From: a bacterium
Lineage (GTDB): Bacteria; Patescibacteriota; Saccharimonadia; Saccharimonadales; Saccharimonadaceae
Direction: 5' to 3'
Length of the DNA stretch: 32,352 nt
Assembly: GCA_030452455.1 (NCBI GenBank)
Contig: JAKDMF010000004.1
Coordinates: 1 to 32,352 of the forward strand
This document shows positions 9,853 through 32,352 of this stretch, piece after piece. Under the pieces are notes generated by a model. The model saw only the letters and a list, made by a program, of their open reading frames with translations, searched no databases and had not been told where the DNA came from. The position numbers were made by a program, and so were the translations under genes. The stretch's first letter is position 1, and each line of letters starts with the position of its first letter.

Positions 9853-12156
9853 ATGACAAATACGGCAAAACAGGGTATGGGCGACGGACTGCCGATTTTT
9901 AACTACAAGCAGGCGATCATCGATGCCGTTCATAGCAACCAGGTTACCATAATAACGGCCGAGACGGGTGCCGGTAAGAGTACTCAGGTGCCACAATATC
10001 TAATCGACGCGGGTTACGAAAAGGTTATCGTGACTGAGCCGCGAATACTAGCTGCTCGCAATCTATCGCTGCGAGTCAGGCAGGAGTGGCTCGATAGTCA
10101 CCCCGAGGCAGCCGAGCTGGAGATTGCCTACCGAACCGCCCATGAGCGAGATGACGATCCGACCACTACTAAGGTGCTGTATTGTACCGACGGCCTGCAA
10201 CTGGTGCGTGAGTTAACTGGTAGCGGCACAACAACCAAGCAGGTTCTAGTCCTCGACGAAGTCCACGAGTGGAACGAGAATATGGAGGTTCTGATAGCTT
10301 GGTCCAAGCAGCGGGCTAGTCAGGATCCTAATTTTAAAATTGTGATTATGAGCGCTACTATCGAATCGGCTAGTCTGGCTAGGTATTATGGCACCGAGGC
10401 GGTTATAGAAGTGCCGGGGCGAAGTTATGATGTCAAAAAGCGTCATGGCAGCGACGTCGTCTCAGAAATAATGAGCTACTTGCCGCAGCAGAAGAATCTA
10501 CTAGTTTTTCTGCCGGGTAAGTCTGAAATCCAAGAAGTCAACGACATTATAGCCAGGCAGGCGACCAAGCATAAAGTTCCGGTCATTGCTCTCCATTCCC
10601 AACTGGAGGCAGTGGCTCAGCAGGCAGCGTTTGAGAGCTACCCGAGCGGCAAAGTTATCCTGGCGACAAATATTGCTCAGACTAGTGTGACTATCGACGA
10701 TGTAGACGTCGTAATTGACAGCGGACTGGAGCGCCAGATTGAGGTCCGGAGCGGCGTTGAAGGACTTTTCTTGAACCAGGTAGCGAAAGCTGACTGCTTG
10801 CAGCGAGCTGGTCGAGCTGGCCGAACCAAACACGGTGAATATGTGCTGGCCCAGCTTGGTGAAATGGAGTGTATCAGCCTTGACGATCGGCAAGACTACG
10901 GTCAGCCGGAGATACTGCGTAAGCACATCGACCGGGTGGCTCTGCGCCTAGCCAGTATCGGCGTTGATATCGACGAGCTGGAGTTTTACCACTCACCGAG
11001 TAAAACCGCTATCAAACGAGCTAAGCGACGCCTGAAAGACCTCGGTGCGCTTGATCTACGCGGAGCGATTACTGATATCGGCCGGCAGATGGAGCAGTAT
11101 CCAGTTGAATCGAAGTATGGCCGGATGATTGTCGAAGCCTATCAGTATAACGCCCCAGTCCAGTCATGGTTAATTGCTATTATTGGTATCCAGGAGTCGG
11201 GTGGAATTGTCCGGGGCGGCACGCAATATGACGGCTGGAAGCAGTACGTCACCCACGACCAGTCAGATTTAATCGCCGAGTACGATGTCTATCTGGCGCT
11301 CGAGGATATTTACCCCGAAGAATACGAAGACCTCGGTATTATCGAAAAGAATGTCGACAAGGCGGAGGATGTTATCTCACGGCTCAGTGAAGTGCTCGGC
11401 ATAACTTATGACAAAGACCAGCAGCTAACCAAGCAGGAGCACGCCGACCTGTTACGCTGCATTGTGGCCGGCCAAATTGACCAGCTCTGGACTATCAATC
11501 AACGCGGCCAAGCCCTGCACTATATTACTCACGACGAGCGAGAAATATCGAATAGTTCGGTCGTCAAAAAAACGCCACTATTTGCTGGCACGCCATTTGA
11601 CCTGCAGGTGTCGAGCAAATCAGGCAAGCTGGAGGTTCTGCATCTAGTTCAGGATATAACTCGGGTCGATCCGAAGTGGCTGGCCGAGCTCCGCCCAGAT
11701 GTTTTCAAGCTCAAGCCCGGTACTCAGATGTATTACGACCCGTATATCGAGGGACTAGCTGAGCGACAGGACGTTTTAGTCCATGGCATGGTGTTGTCCG
11801 GTTCCGGCACACCTGTCACCAAAGCCTCATCCTATAACCGCAAACAATTCGAAGATCAATTCGCCCTCTGGGTGCACGAAAAACTAGAGTTCAAAAAATC
11901 AAAACTCGGCCGATTTACGCGTCGCCGAGTCAAAGTACCGAGCCTCCGGCAACTAGCCCTCCAGATTCGAGGCCGGGCCGGCGGAGTGGTTGCTCTCGAT
12001 CAGCTTGATAGCAAGGCTAGGCGCGAGCTGCTTAATTTAGCTCGGCTAGACGCACCGGGCGGGGGTAGGTCCGACAAGCCGGATAAAAAGCGTCGTTTCG
12101 GTAAGCCGAAGCAAAAAGATAAGCGTTTTAAGGGACCAAAGCACAAACGCTACTAA
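9853..12156 (+). CDS. DEAH/HrpB-like RNA helicase (motif II DEVH), basic C-terminal tail
   Basis: Walker A AETGAGKSTQVPQYL, DEVHEWNEN, SAT, QRAGRAGRT; C-terminal KPDKKRRFGKPKQKDKRFKGPKHKRY. Confidence 0.9.
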   Translation: MTNTAKQGMGDGLPIFNYKQAIIDAVHSNQVTIITAETGAGKSTQVPQYLIDAGYEKVIVTEPRILAARNLSLRVRQEWLDSHPEAAELEIAYRTAHERDDDPTTTKVLYCTDGLQLVRELTGSGTTTKQVLVLDEVHEWNENMEVLIAWSKQRASQDPNFKIVIMSATIESASLARYYGTEAVIEVPGRSYDVKKRHGSDVVSEIMSYLPQQKNLLVFLPGKSEIQEVNDIIARQATKHKVPVIALHSQLEAVAQQAAFESYPSGKVILATNIAQTSVTIDDVDVVIDSGLERQIEVRSGVEGLFLNQVAKADCLQRAGRAGRTKHGEYVLAQLGEMECISLDDRQDYGQPEILRKHIDRVALRLASIGVDIDELEFYHSPSKTAIKRAKRRLKDLGALDLRGAITDIGRQMEQYPVESKYGRMIVEAYQYNAPVQSWLIAIIGIQESGGIVRGGTQYDGWKQYVTHDQSDLIAEYDVYLALEDIYPEEYEDLGIIEKNVDKAEDVISRLSEVLGITYDKDQQLTKQEHADLLRCIVAGQIDQLWTINQRGQALHYITHDEREISNSSVVKKTPLFAGTPFDLQVSSKSGKLEVLHLVQDITRVDPKWLAELRPDVFKLKPGTQMYYDPYIEGLAERQDVLVHGMVLSGSGTPVTKASSYNRKQFEDQFALWVHEKLEFKKSKLGRFTRRRVKVPSLRQLALQIRGRAGGVVALDQLDSKARRELLNLARLDAPGGGRSDKPDKKRRFGKPKQKDKRFKGPKHKRY

Positions 12157-12252: not shown

Positions 12253-15120
12253 ATGCAACGAAGTTTTGGTCGTGTAGACAATGATCACAGCCCCAAAGAA
12301 GGCTATCCTACGCCTGCGCATTATTACCACGAGAATCAGTTAGCTCAGCCAGAAATAAATAAACGAAAAATCGCCGAAATACAGCAGCAAATTGGTACGC
12401 GATCAGTTGAACTTACAGTCGAGACACCGTACCGATATAGCGGTGAGATTAGTCCGGCAGATTTGATCAGCCAAATGGCCGTACCGTATCAGGTTGAGCT
12501 CGAGGCTCGACGCGAAGAAGAAATGATCAAGAGCTTTGAAGGCTTCGGCAACCCAGAACTGCCAACTGCGGCCTATAAGCAGGAGATTATCGAGGCCGTT
12601 GCTAGCCATCAAGTAACGATTATTTCTGGCGACACTGGATCGGGTAAAAGCACCCAAGTTCCACAATTTCTATATGAGGCTGGCCACTCGATAGCCATGA
12701 CACAGCCGCGCCGAATCGCTGCCTATGGCGTAGCCGAGCGAATTGATGAAGAGTTACGCCAGGTCTCAGCCGATGAGCTACCCGAGAACGTAGTTGGCTA
12801 TCATACGGCGGAGAAGAACACGACCGATAAATCGACTAAGATCACTGTCTTCACCGACGGCCTGAAGCTAGTTAAAAAGCTCAATGAAAAATCCAGCAAA
12901 ATGGAAGAAATCCTTGTGATCGACGAAGTCCACGAGTGGAACGAAAATATTGAACTACTTGTGGCACACACTAAAAAGCTGCTAGCGGAAAACAGCGACA
13001 TGAAACTGGTCATTATGAGCGCCACTATGGACGGGCATGACCTAGCCCGCTACTACGGCGAAGTTACCAAAGAAGCTCCCTCAGTTATCGAAGTGCCGGG
13101 GCGTACTTTTGGTGTCGAAAAATCAGAGCTACCAACCGAGACAGTCGAGAGTCGGATTTTGCATCACGCCGAGCGTCTGAGCACCAAAAAACAGTCTCAA
13201 ATCGATGCACTGGAACGCGGCGAGGAGTTTGAGTCGGAGCCAACTGACATACTAGTCTTTCTGCCGGGGCTAGGCGAAATAAACGACAAGTTAGGCTATG
13301 TCAAAAAACATCTACCAGCTGAAATGCGCGATACAGTTAAAGCCCTGCCGCTTCACAGCAAGGTAGGCGAGGACATCCAGCAGGAGGTCTTTCAGGCTCA
13401 TCACGATGGTATCAAAATAATCCTGGCAACTAACGTGGCTCAAACCAGTATCACCGTCAACGGTATCGATACTGTGATCGACAGTGGGCTGGAGCGTCGG
13501 ATTGAGCTTGATGAAGCCGGTGTTCAGGGCCTAAGAGTCGCTCCAGCGTCTCGAGCTGATCTTACTCAGCGGATGGGTCGAACTGGCCGGACCGCACCGG
13601 GTCACTACGAGCTAGTTAAGCTCGATGAATCAACTGATTTCGTACCATTTATCGAGCGACCACAATATTCCGTACCGGAAATACTCCGGGTTGACCTGGC
13701 TCGTAGCATGCTGCGTCTAATCCCGGCCGGTCTTGATATTGAAACGCTTGATTTCTATCACCCGATTGAAAAAGAATCCATCAAGCGCGCCAAAGATGAA
13801 CTATACGGCTTGGGTGCGATTGATCAAGACGGTAATATAACTAAATCTGGCCGCCGCATGAATGATTTCCCGCTTAGTCCAAACTCCGGTCGAATGATGG
13901 TTGAGTCAGAAAATTACTCAAAACCAGTCCGGTCCTATATGGCGGCTATGACAGCCATCAAAGAGGTCGGTGGGCTACCGATGTACAACAAGCGCTCCAG
14001 TAACTGGAAAAAACTAACCAGCCAGACTAAGTCTGACATGCTGGCCCAACTCGATATATTTATAGCCATGAACGGCCAAGATTTTGAAACCCAGCGCGAG
14101 TTTGATATCGACGTTAAAAATATGCGCCGAGCCCATGAGCAGTTCAACAAAATCAACAACCTAGTTGATGGCAGCGACGATGCTCTAGCTACTAATCCAT
14201 CCAGTGACCAGATCGAGAATATGCAGAGCTGTATCTATGCCGGTATGGTTAACCAAGTTTTCAAATTCAGTGGTAACAACGAGCGAAAACGGCCCTCGTT
14301 TAGGCACCTTAACTCCAAGGACAAGACCCGTCGAGAAATCAGTAACCGGAGCGTAGTTGACTTTAAGGGTCGCAAAGATGGCTACCTAGTTGGTGAAAAA
14401 TGGCGAGCTGAATTCAAGCGCGGCTCGGAGCTAGTTGATCGACATATTATTGAAGGTGTCACTGTACTAGAAGACCCGAAAGTACTCGGCAAAATAGCCG
14501 CCCGACTTGTCAGCTGGGAGCAGACTAGTCAAGAAACTCACTGGCGTAACGGGCGACCGGCTAAAAACGAAAAATTGATGCTGGGTGAGATTGAAATGAG
14601 CGACAGCCGAGAAGCCGAGGCAGCGCCATCAGAGACGACTCGCCAGGTTATTATCGACAAAGCTCTTGATCGACCCGGTCCAGCCCAGGAGCATATTAGG
14701 CGCGTCAAAAGCGAAGTTGAGAAGCTCCAGCACCGCACCACTCAAGACCTTAAAAAAATAACCCATAGCGATCTAATGAAAATGGTAGATCAGGCTGCGC
14801 CGACAGATATCGTCGATCCATTTGTGATAGATAATAATCTATGGATCGCAATTGATAAGCACAATATCACAGTTGATAACTATGTTTCACCTGAGAAGCA
14901 GCAAGAAATTATGGAAAACTCACCATCAACCATTGACGCTGGTGGTGTCGAATACTACGTTGAGTATCATGGTGGCGAGCCACGAATTAAGCGCTATCAA
15001 AACAACGATATTTTAAAAACCGATGGTGATATCACTCTGGCGGACGGCCGCAAGGTTATGTTCGTCTACAAAAAACAGATGTACAGTTCTAGTCAGCTAA
15101 AATCGACTCTTCAGGCTTAA
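12253..15120 (+). CDS. Second DEAH/HrpA-B-like RNA helicase (motif II DEVH), paralogue of the preceding gene with N- and C-terminal extensions
   Basis: GDTGSGKSTQVPQFL, DEVHEWNEN, SAT, QRMGRTGRT; 955 aa. Confidence 0.9.
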   Translation: MQRSFGRVDNDHSPKEGYPTPAHYYHENQLAQPEINKRKIAEIQQQIGTRSVELTVETPYRYSGEISPADLISQMAVPYQVELEARREEEMIKSFEGFGNPELPTAAYKQEIIEAVASHQVTIISGDTGSGKSTQVPQFLYEAGHSIAMTQPRRIAAYGVAERIDEELRQVSADELPENVVGYHTAEKNTTDKSTKITVFTDGLKLVKKLNEKSSKMEEILVIDEVHEWNENIELLVAHTKKLLAENSDMKLVIMSATMDGHDLARYYGEVTKEAPSVIEVPGRTFGVEKSELPTETVESRILHHAERLSTKKQSQIDALERGEEFESEPTDILVFLPGLGEINDKLGYVKKHLPAEMRDTVKALPLHSKVGEDIQQEVFQAHHDGIKIILATNVAQTSITVNGIDTVIDSGLERRIELDEAGVQGLRVAPASRADLTQRMGRTGRTAPGHYELVKLDESTDFVPFIERPQYSVPEILRVDLARSMLRLIPAGLDIETLDFYHPIEKESIKRAKDELYGLGAIDQDGNITKSGRRMNDFPLSPNSGRMMVESENYSKPVRSYMAAMTAIKEVGGLPMYNKRSSNWKKLTSQTKSDMLAQLDIFIAMNGQDFETQREFDIDVKNMRRAHEQFNKINNLVDGSDDALATNPSSDQIENMQSCIYAGMVNQVFKFSGNNERKRPSFRHLNSKDKTRREISNRSVVDFKGRKDGYLVGEKWRAEFKRGSELVDRHIIEGVTVLEDPKVLGKIAARLVSWEQTSQETHWRNGRPAKNEKLMLGEIEMSDSREAEAAPSETTRQVIIDKALDRPGPAQEHIRRVKSEVEKLQHRTTQDLKKITHSDLMKMVDQAAPTDIVDPFVIDNNLWIAIDKHNITVDNYVSPEKQQEIMENSPSTIDAGGVEYYVEYHGGEPRIKRYQNNDILKTDGDITLADGRKVMFVYKKQMYSSSQLKSTLQA

Positions 15121-31660: not shown

Positions 31661-31933
31661 TTAGCCAACTGAGACGCGTGTTCGATCAACACTACGACCA
31701 GTGAAGTGGCCTTTTTTCACCTTAGCGAAGCTAACTACGCCAGCTTTGGCAGCGTGAATAGTAAAGTTACGGCTGACGTAAGTGCCAGGTCCAGCTATTT
31801 TTGTTGAACCAGTCTGACGAACCAAAACTTCACCGGCGTTAACTTGTTGGCCACCAAAGCGCTTTACGCCAAGTCGTTGACCAGCATTGTTGTGGATGTT
31901 TTTACTGGAACCACCAGCTTTGACATGGGACAT
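31661..31933 (-). CDS. rpmA: 50S ribosomal protein L27
   Basis: MSHVKAGGSSKNIHNNAGQRLGVKRFGGQQVNAGEVLVRQTGSTKIAGPGTYVSRNFTIHAAKAGVVSFAK; SD AGGAG (minus) at 31940-31944. Confidence 0.96.
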   Translation of the reverse strand: MSHVKAGGSSKNIHNNAGQRLGVKRFGGQQVNAGEVLVRQTGSTKIAGPGTYVSRNFTIHAAKAGVVSFAKVKKGHFTGRSVDRTRVSVG

Positions 31934-31971: not shown

Positions 31972-32000
31972 ATTGTAATTTATATCGCCCCTGATGTCAA
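31972..32000 (-). promoter_or_regulatory. sigma70-type promoter for rpmA
   Basis: On minus strand: TTGACA (31995-32000) - 17 nt - TACAAT (31972-31977). Confidence 0.8.
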
Positions 32001-32031
32001 GGGGATGGGGCGAGTTTCGTCGAGTGGAGGA

Positions 32032-32164
32032 CGAATCGGCCACTCAGTATATTTGAACCATCGTGTCCATGAGGAGAATCTTGAGGCAAGCCTCAGGAAT
32101 CTCCTCATAGACAGCGCTAGATTGTTAATGGTTCAAATACACCAAGCAACTGGTTCGCTAGCGC
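32032..32164 (+). ncRNA. Structured RNA element, copy 1, of unknown class
   Basis: Nested helices: P1 32032-32039/32150-32157; P2 32050-32061/32128-32139; P3 32069-32077/32100-32108 (plus 32065-32067/32110-32112); P4 32079-32086/32091-32098 across an A.A mismatch; candidate pseudoknot 32114-32120/32158-32164. Same fold in copy 2 with compensatory changes. Confidence 0.8.
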
Positions 32165-32218
32165 ATGACGGAGGTCGCATAGATTATATATTTTAGGGAG
32201 CACTGAAAATTAGATAGA

Positions 32219-32352
32219 CCGGATCAGCCACTTGGCACATCTGAAGCATCGTGGCCAACTGGAGAATCTTGGGTCGGACGTCAGGAATCTCCAGTTGGTC
32301 AGCGCAGATAGTTAATGCTTCAGATACGCCCAGCGACTGATCCGGCTAGCGT
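32219..32352 (+). ncRNA. Structured RNA element, copy 2, of unknown class (may extend past window edge)
   Basis: P1 32219-32227/32337-32345; P2 32239-32249/32315-32325 plus 32234-32236/32328-32330; P3 32253-32265/32288-32300; apical hairpin; pseudoknot candidate 32302-32307/32346-32352. About three-quarters identical to copy 1 with paired substitutions. Confidence 0.8.

Follow-up and report, generated by a model that had tools for sequence, protein, structure and literature searches.

Two copies of a long hairpin lie at the right end of the 32,352-nucleotide stretch of Saccharibacteria DNA analysed here (hereafter the window), and the repeats to which they belong are probably a small mobile element that is non-autonomous, occurs in one Saccharibacteria family and is active as the hairpin of one folded strand. 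The element is about 130-150 nt long and keeps its shape while the sequences of its stems vary freely between copies. One strand, the minus strand of the window, is the one that must pair; the copies are dispersed in the genomes that carry them and are absent from the same sites in relatives. We describe the element, which would act as RNA or as single-stranded DNA, as non-autonomous because Y1 transposases, reverse transcriptases and extra tyrosine recombinases do not follow its presence.

Two copies at the right end of the window

A first-pass annotation of the window had reported a tandem pair of structured elements of about 133 nt on a 188-nt period. Both copies are present, with core hairpins at 32045-32144 and 32233-32331 (188 nt apart), and their extents are redrawn to whole predicted hairpins at approximately 32026-32162 and 32215-32348. 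The first copy, W1, comprises stems P1, P2 and P3 on the minus strand (32026..32162) and folds with a z-score of -7.9, its core on the minus strand scoring 98.9 bits with covariance model R2; the second, W2 (32215..32348, minus strand), folds with a z-score of -8.4 and its core, likewise on the minus strand, scores 94.9 bits with the same model, both z-scores being relative to dinucleotide shuffles. The compensatory swaps reported between the copies at T48-A141/C236-G328, T53-A136/C241-G323, C58-G131/G246-C318 and T70-A107/A258-T295 (numbers shortened from 32xxx) were checked by position and are real. An asymmetric bulge of about 11 nt, conserved in the 8- and 35-copy alignments described below, lies on the minus strand at 32119..32129 in W1 (plus-strand letters CTAGATTGTTA) and at 32306..32315 in W2 (plus-strand letters CAGATAGTTA), the edges being approximate in both. 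The apical part, also on the minus strand, reads GAGATTCCTG...CAAGATTCTC around a T.T mismatch, with a variable loop; it occupies 32074..32103 in W1 and, with the same motif, 32262..32291 in W2, and it is invariant or nearly so in all copies.

The word pair is correct locally, but the same genome carries at least eight copies, at least six of them outside the window on contigs C44, C7 and C5. The window joins contig C26 of this genome through an exact 55-base overlap, and the extension to the right that had been proposed for counting further tandem copies reveals no third copy in the continuation; the first gene beyond W2 on C26 encodes a methyltransferase on the minus strand. The overlap, between the window end and the start of L011, falls inside W2, and this assembly break is consistent with the repeat or strain variation splitting the contig.

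On the left, the pair is flanked by rpmA (31661..31933, minus strand), encoding ribosomal protein bL27 (Pfam PF01016, 72.3 bits). A promoter-like sequence TTGACA-17-TACAAT (31972..32000, minus strand), recognised by its consensus match at 11 of 12 positions, stands between W1 and rpmA and is a neighbour rather than a part of the element. Because it separates the copies from rpmA, and the copies lie upstream of it, W1 and W2 are not in the rpmA leader. The promoter 12-mer TGACATCAGGGG recurs beside smpB in L012 (~1798-1809). Elsewhere in the window, two adjacent large ORFs (9853-12156 and 12253-15120) with the helicase-like motifs GSGKSTQVPQ and DEVHEW are apparently tandem DEAH-box helicases.

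Anatomy of the hairpin and selection on pairing

P1, the outer stem, is about 25-33 bp long, and its sequence is free to vary. It is followed by a short conserved block of pairs (CAT/ATG and CG/CG) and by about 11 conserved nucleotides bulged on one side. A second stem of free sequence, P2, of about 11 bp, runs between the bulge and the apical motif which, on the strand first read (the plus strand of the window), is AGAATCTtG / CaGGAATCT with a central A.A mismatch; this motif is invariant and leads to a variable loop. The conserved blocks had been described earlier as unpaired or irregular. That description suits the bulge of about 11 nt, C.AGAT.GTTA, which is both unpaired and conserved, but not GAGAATCTTG...CAGGAATCTC, which is mostly paired around the A.A mismatch.

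Selection acts on pairing in the hairpin, as had been proposed from the window copies with covariation among further homologues as the check. In an alignment of eight copies, two-sided changes occur at 22 of the 39 pairs; sliding the partners by 1-3 columns leaves 6-11 such pairs, and shuffles give a mean of 12.4. With 35 copies, 33 of the 39 pairs and 397 cells are affected, while slid structures reach at most 25 pairs and 100 cells; as the copies are related, these counts, like the mismatch counts below, are not independent tests. Compensation is far above chance in both sets, and the APC analysis agrees: when 35 copies are aligned with MAFFT, blind to structure, the 23 column pairs with the strongest APC-corrected covariation are all on the two diagonals of the hairpin.

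The strand that folds

A G.T mismatch on one strand reads as A.C on the other. Because the two are each other's complements, the ratio of A.C to G.T reveals the strand that must pair. On the strand first read, the variable pairs contain 76 A.C against 28 G.T, and P1 stems aligned without a model contain 69 A.C against 11 G.T, with 24 copies leaning towards A.C and none in the opposite direction. The bias has the same direction in copies that are sense and antisense to their neighbours, and the reverse-complement covariance model gives the higher score on 17 of 26 held-out copies. Mismatch bias and better reverse-complement scores together place the folded strand on the minus strand of the window, and the plus-strand RNA of the first-pass annotation is rejected by the mismatch pattern. 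RNA and DNA both tolerate G.T better than A.C, so the bias does not separate RNA from single-stranded DNA.

Distribution

The covariance model built from eight aligned copies detected the element in 19 of 296 genomes of the host's Saccharibacteria family, spread over 12 of 61 genera, at 1-8 copies per genome (G000, G016 and G162 being multi-copy genomes), and a second search using a richer model and a second draw of genomes detected it in 18 of 394, the genomes searched often being incomplete. Across a phylum-wide sample of 384 genomes, two genomes matched, both from the host's family; the model found no match outside this one family. The named records behind the model matches are Saccharibacteria and the others are MAGs. 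No copies were found by blastn in phages and plasmids. Sequence-pattern matches in Methanothrix, Nostoc, Bacillota and one viral contig were set aside: the covariance model disagrees with them, and the apical motif alone matches, weakly. The element had initially been matched to no known riboswitch, ribozyme or other RNA class, and a search of Rfam 15 concurs, with no match at the gathering threshold and nothing relevant at E values up to 10, where the best matches are unrelated miRNA models. The literature searched yielded no paper on dispersed palindromes or structured repeats in Saccharibacteria, nor on structured RNAs in Saccharibacteria or CPR.

Dispersal and same-site absence

The neighbours of the copies are unrelated housekeeping genes in every orientation, with copies antisense to genes and inside coding sequence, in a tally that rests on mechanical ORFs and their reading by eye. 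One copy in genome G086 is inserted in frame within recG, adding about 153 nt (51 codons) in a loop before LPHLLAMTATPIPRS, and is missing from 12 congeneric genomes. Another, in G100 (L031:1137-2243, minus strand), lies in frame in the linker joining the RNase HII and UPF0102 (YraN) domains of a single rnhB-yraN ORF. G158 carries an inverted pair that is lacking in 14 congeners whose flanks can both be aligned, and in most of these the flanks are only 24-54 nt apart. A mobile structured repeat had been one of several options considered for the window copies, and dispersed copies, unrelated neighbours and same-site absence in relatives now speak for it.

Close pairs, direct or inverted, recur in the window, on C44 and in G158 and G118, a recurrence suggestive of target preference. 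On contig C44 (L012, ~1960-2085), two apparently decayed copies, CTGTTAATGG and reversed CAGCGAAAATTATTAA, separate copies a and b, and from its sequence the smpB-pyrH interval of this contig looks like an insertion hot spot.

Copies retained at one site

Some copies have stayed in place. A copy is found between smpB and cmk in four species of one genus, and between rpmE and prfA in two genera (L019:1430-1700 and L028:1255-1560). The stems of retained copies differ by compensated changes and the loops are kept. The orthologous copies of L030 and L024 show four two-sided changes, all paired in both states; across genera, the copies of L019 and L028 show eight, of which six are paired in both states. 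Compensation between orthologous copies counts against a purely mobile element, since it suggests that the copies serve some local function for which a mere parasite would have no need; retention implies continuing activity or host use.

At the smpB-cmk locus, L021 and L030 have near-identical cmk starts and strongly different element alleles and smpB sides; by inspection, a recombination breakpoint appears to lie near the element. Hypermutation of the stems between L021 and L030 was considered and rejected, the element and the cmk flanks grouping the four species differently (by inspection). Because the relationships of element and flank differ, recombination between alleles is the simpler cause at this locus.

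Comparison with known palindromic elements

Patescibacteria have reduced genomes, and Rickettsia, the hosts of the Rickettsia palindromic elements (RPE), are likewise small-genome, host-dependent bacteria. RPE are described as elements of 105-146 bp forming a long stem-loop, located between genes and in frame within protein genes (PMC2229807). Compared by description rather than by sequence, the Saccharibacteria element resembles them in size, in being a dispersed palindrome present in several copies, in its in-frame and intergenic insertion and in its small-genome, host-dependent bacteria; the empty site in relatives is a further RPE-like trait. Unlike RPE as far as they are described in that source, its stems differ yet stay paired, a single strand is functional and an internal bulge is conserved (PMC2229807). 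By analogy, the element seems most like RPE-type small mobile palindromes, with no detectable relative outside the host family. The ERIC, Correia (NEMIS) and YPAL-type MITE-like repeats are presented in the same source as imperfect palindromes of about 100-170 bp, mostly intergenic, recognised by sequence and mostly bearing short terminal repeats and target duplications (PMC2229807). The palindrome is similar in the Saccharibacteria element, but no target-site duplication or fixed terminal sequence was found, its exact ends being approximate.

Proposed mechanism and alternative explanations

For the mobile hairpin, we propose that a trans-acting enzyme or protein would recognise the bulge and the apical motif on a folded single strand, either RNA or single-stranded DNA. 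The two recognised motifs would stand about one helical turn apart, and the stems would need only to pair. New copies would insert chiefly into intergenic DNA, at times also in frame inside a gene, and some would be kept for long at their site, under selection or active. Against this reading, no partner enzyme was found; reverse transcriptase genes show no association with the element, being present in 4 of 19 carriers and 7 of 19 controls. More tentatively, the element may represent a previously unrecognised class of nucleic acid, either mobile or trans-acting, in which one folded strand is active, as RNA or as single-stranded DNA with a host or so far unknown enzyme, two fixed loop motifs are recognised and the stems are free; such a class would have become fixed at translation-gene loci in some lineages and been maintained there by compensatory change.

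It seems rather unlikely that the copies form a family of trans-acting or RNA-processing structured RNAs (such as a long hairpin that RNase III cleaves), spread by duplication, kept for a host function and supplied by read-through transcription. About one G.U per ten stem pairs would be expected of RNA, and P1 on the minus strand shows a share of about 10 percent, with 69 G.U-like pairs beside 630 Watson-Crick pairs; the compensated changes in copies that species or genera hold at a common locus would also fit, as would the copies that lie in sense orientation upstream of smpB, pyrH and prfA. However, no conserved promoter or terminator was seen travelling with the element, many copies run antisense to the genes on both sides or sit in frame inside a gene, presence is patchy (the 19 of 296 genomes above) with same-site absence in relatives, and the window copies lie upstream of the rpmA promoter.

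An attC-like recombination site, at which a tyrosine recombinase, possibly the Xer of the host, would act on a folded single strand of DNA, is improbable. In integrons, the folded bottom strand of attC is described as the recognised form, with free stems and unpaired bases that matter (PMC3053210). The Saccharibacteria element shares the single folded strand, the stems that are free but paired and the conserved unpaired bases, and about 11 copies follow closely after a stop codon, their functional strand running antisense to the gene, as in gene cassettes, against about three in the reverse arrangement (tally by eye). It differs in being dispersed singly, without cassette arrays or core boxes and with no integrase identified in a PF00589 search: the attC boxes GTTRRRY / RYYYAAC are absent in register, the bulge carrying GTTAATG or variants unpaired to RYYYAAC (by inspection), and the elements move without genes. 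Extra tyrosine recombinases do not track with the element either, and a search with PF00589, a general and not integron-specific model, finds about one Xer-like gene in nearly every carrier and none in the incomplete genomes G000, G016 and G153.

Mobilisation of a REP-like element by a RAYT (Y1) transposase is more doubtful still. The element is, like REP, dispersed, extragenic and often in close pairs, and Y1 transposases occur in the host's family; REP elements are given as 20-40 bp (PMC3733652), a third to a quarter of the length seen here, and Y1_Tnp shows no association with the element (present in 4 of the 19 carriers and in 48 of the 277 other genomes), with none in the host genome. A cis-regulatory RNA in tandem on the plus strand, either a riboswitch, as suggested earlier, or a ribosomal-protein leader, would be in keeping with two tandem copies with conserved loops; it can be set aside almost entirely, as it uses the wrong strand, has no Rfam match and no conserved downstream gene or orientation (smpB-cmk and rpmE-prfA excepted), and neighbours and orientations are mixed, with copies antisense to genes, within coding sequence and upstream of the rpmA promoter.

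Implications

To our knowledge, how RPE-type elements move is unsolved. For the small mobile hairpin that we favour in Saccharibacteria, one may ask whether the host makes use of the copies fixed close to smpB and prfA. Comparing the numbers of G.T and A.C mismatches is an easy method, independent of any model, for identifying the functional strand of hairpins of this kind. With its strong covariation and measurable functional strand, this repeat would allow the movement of small palindromic elements to be tested directly.
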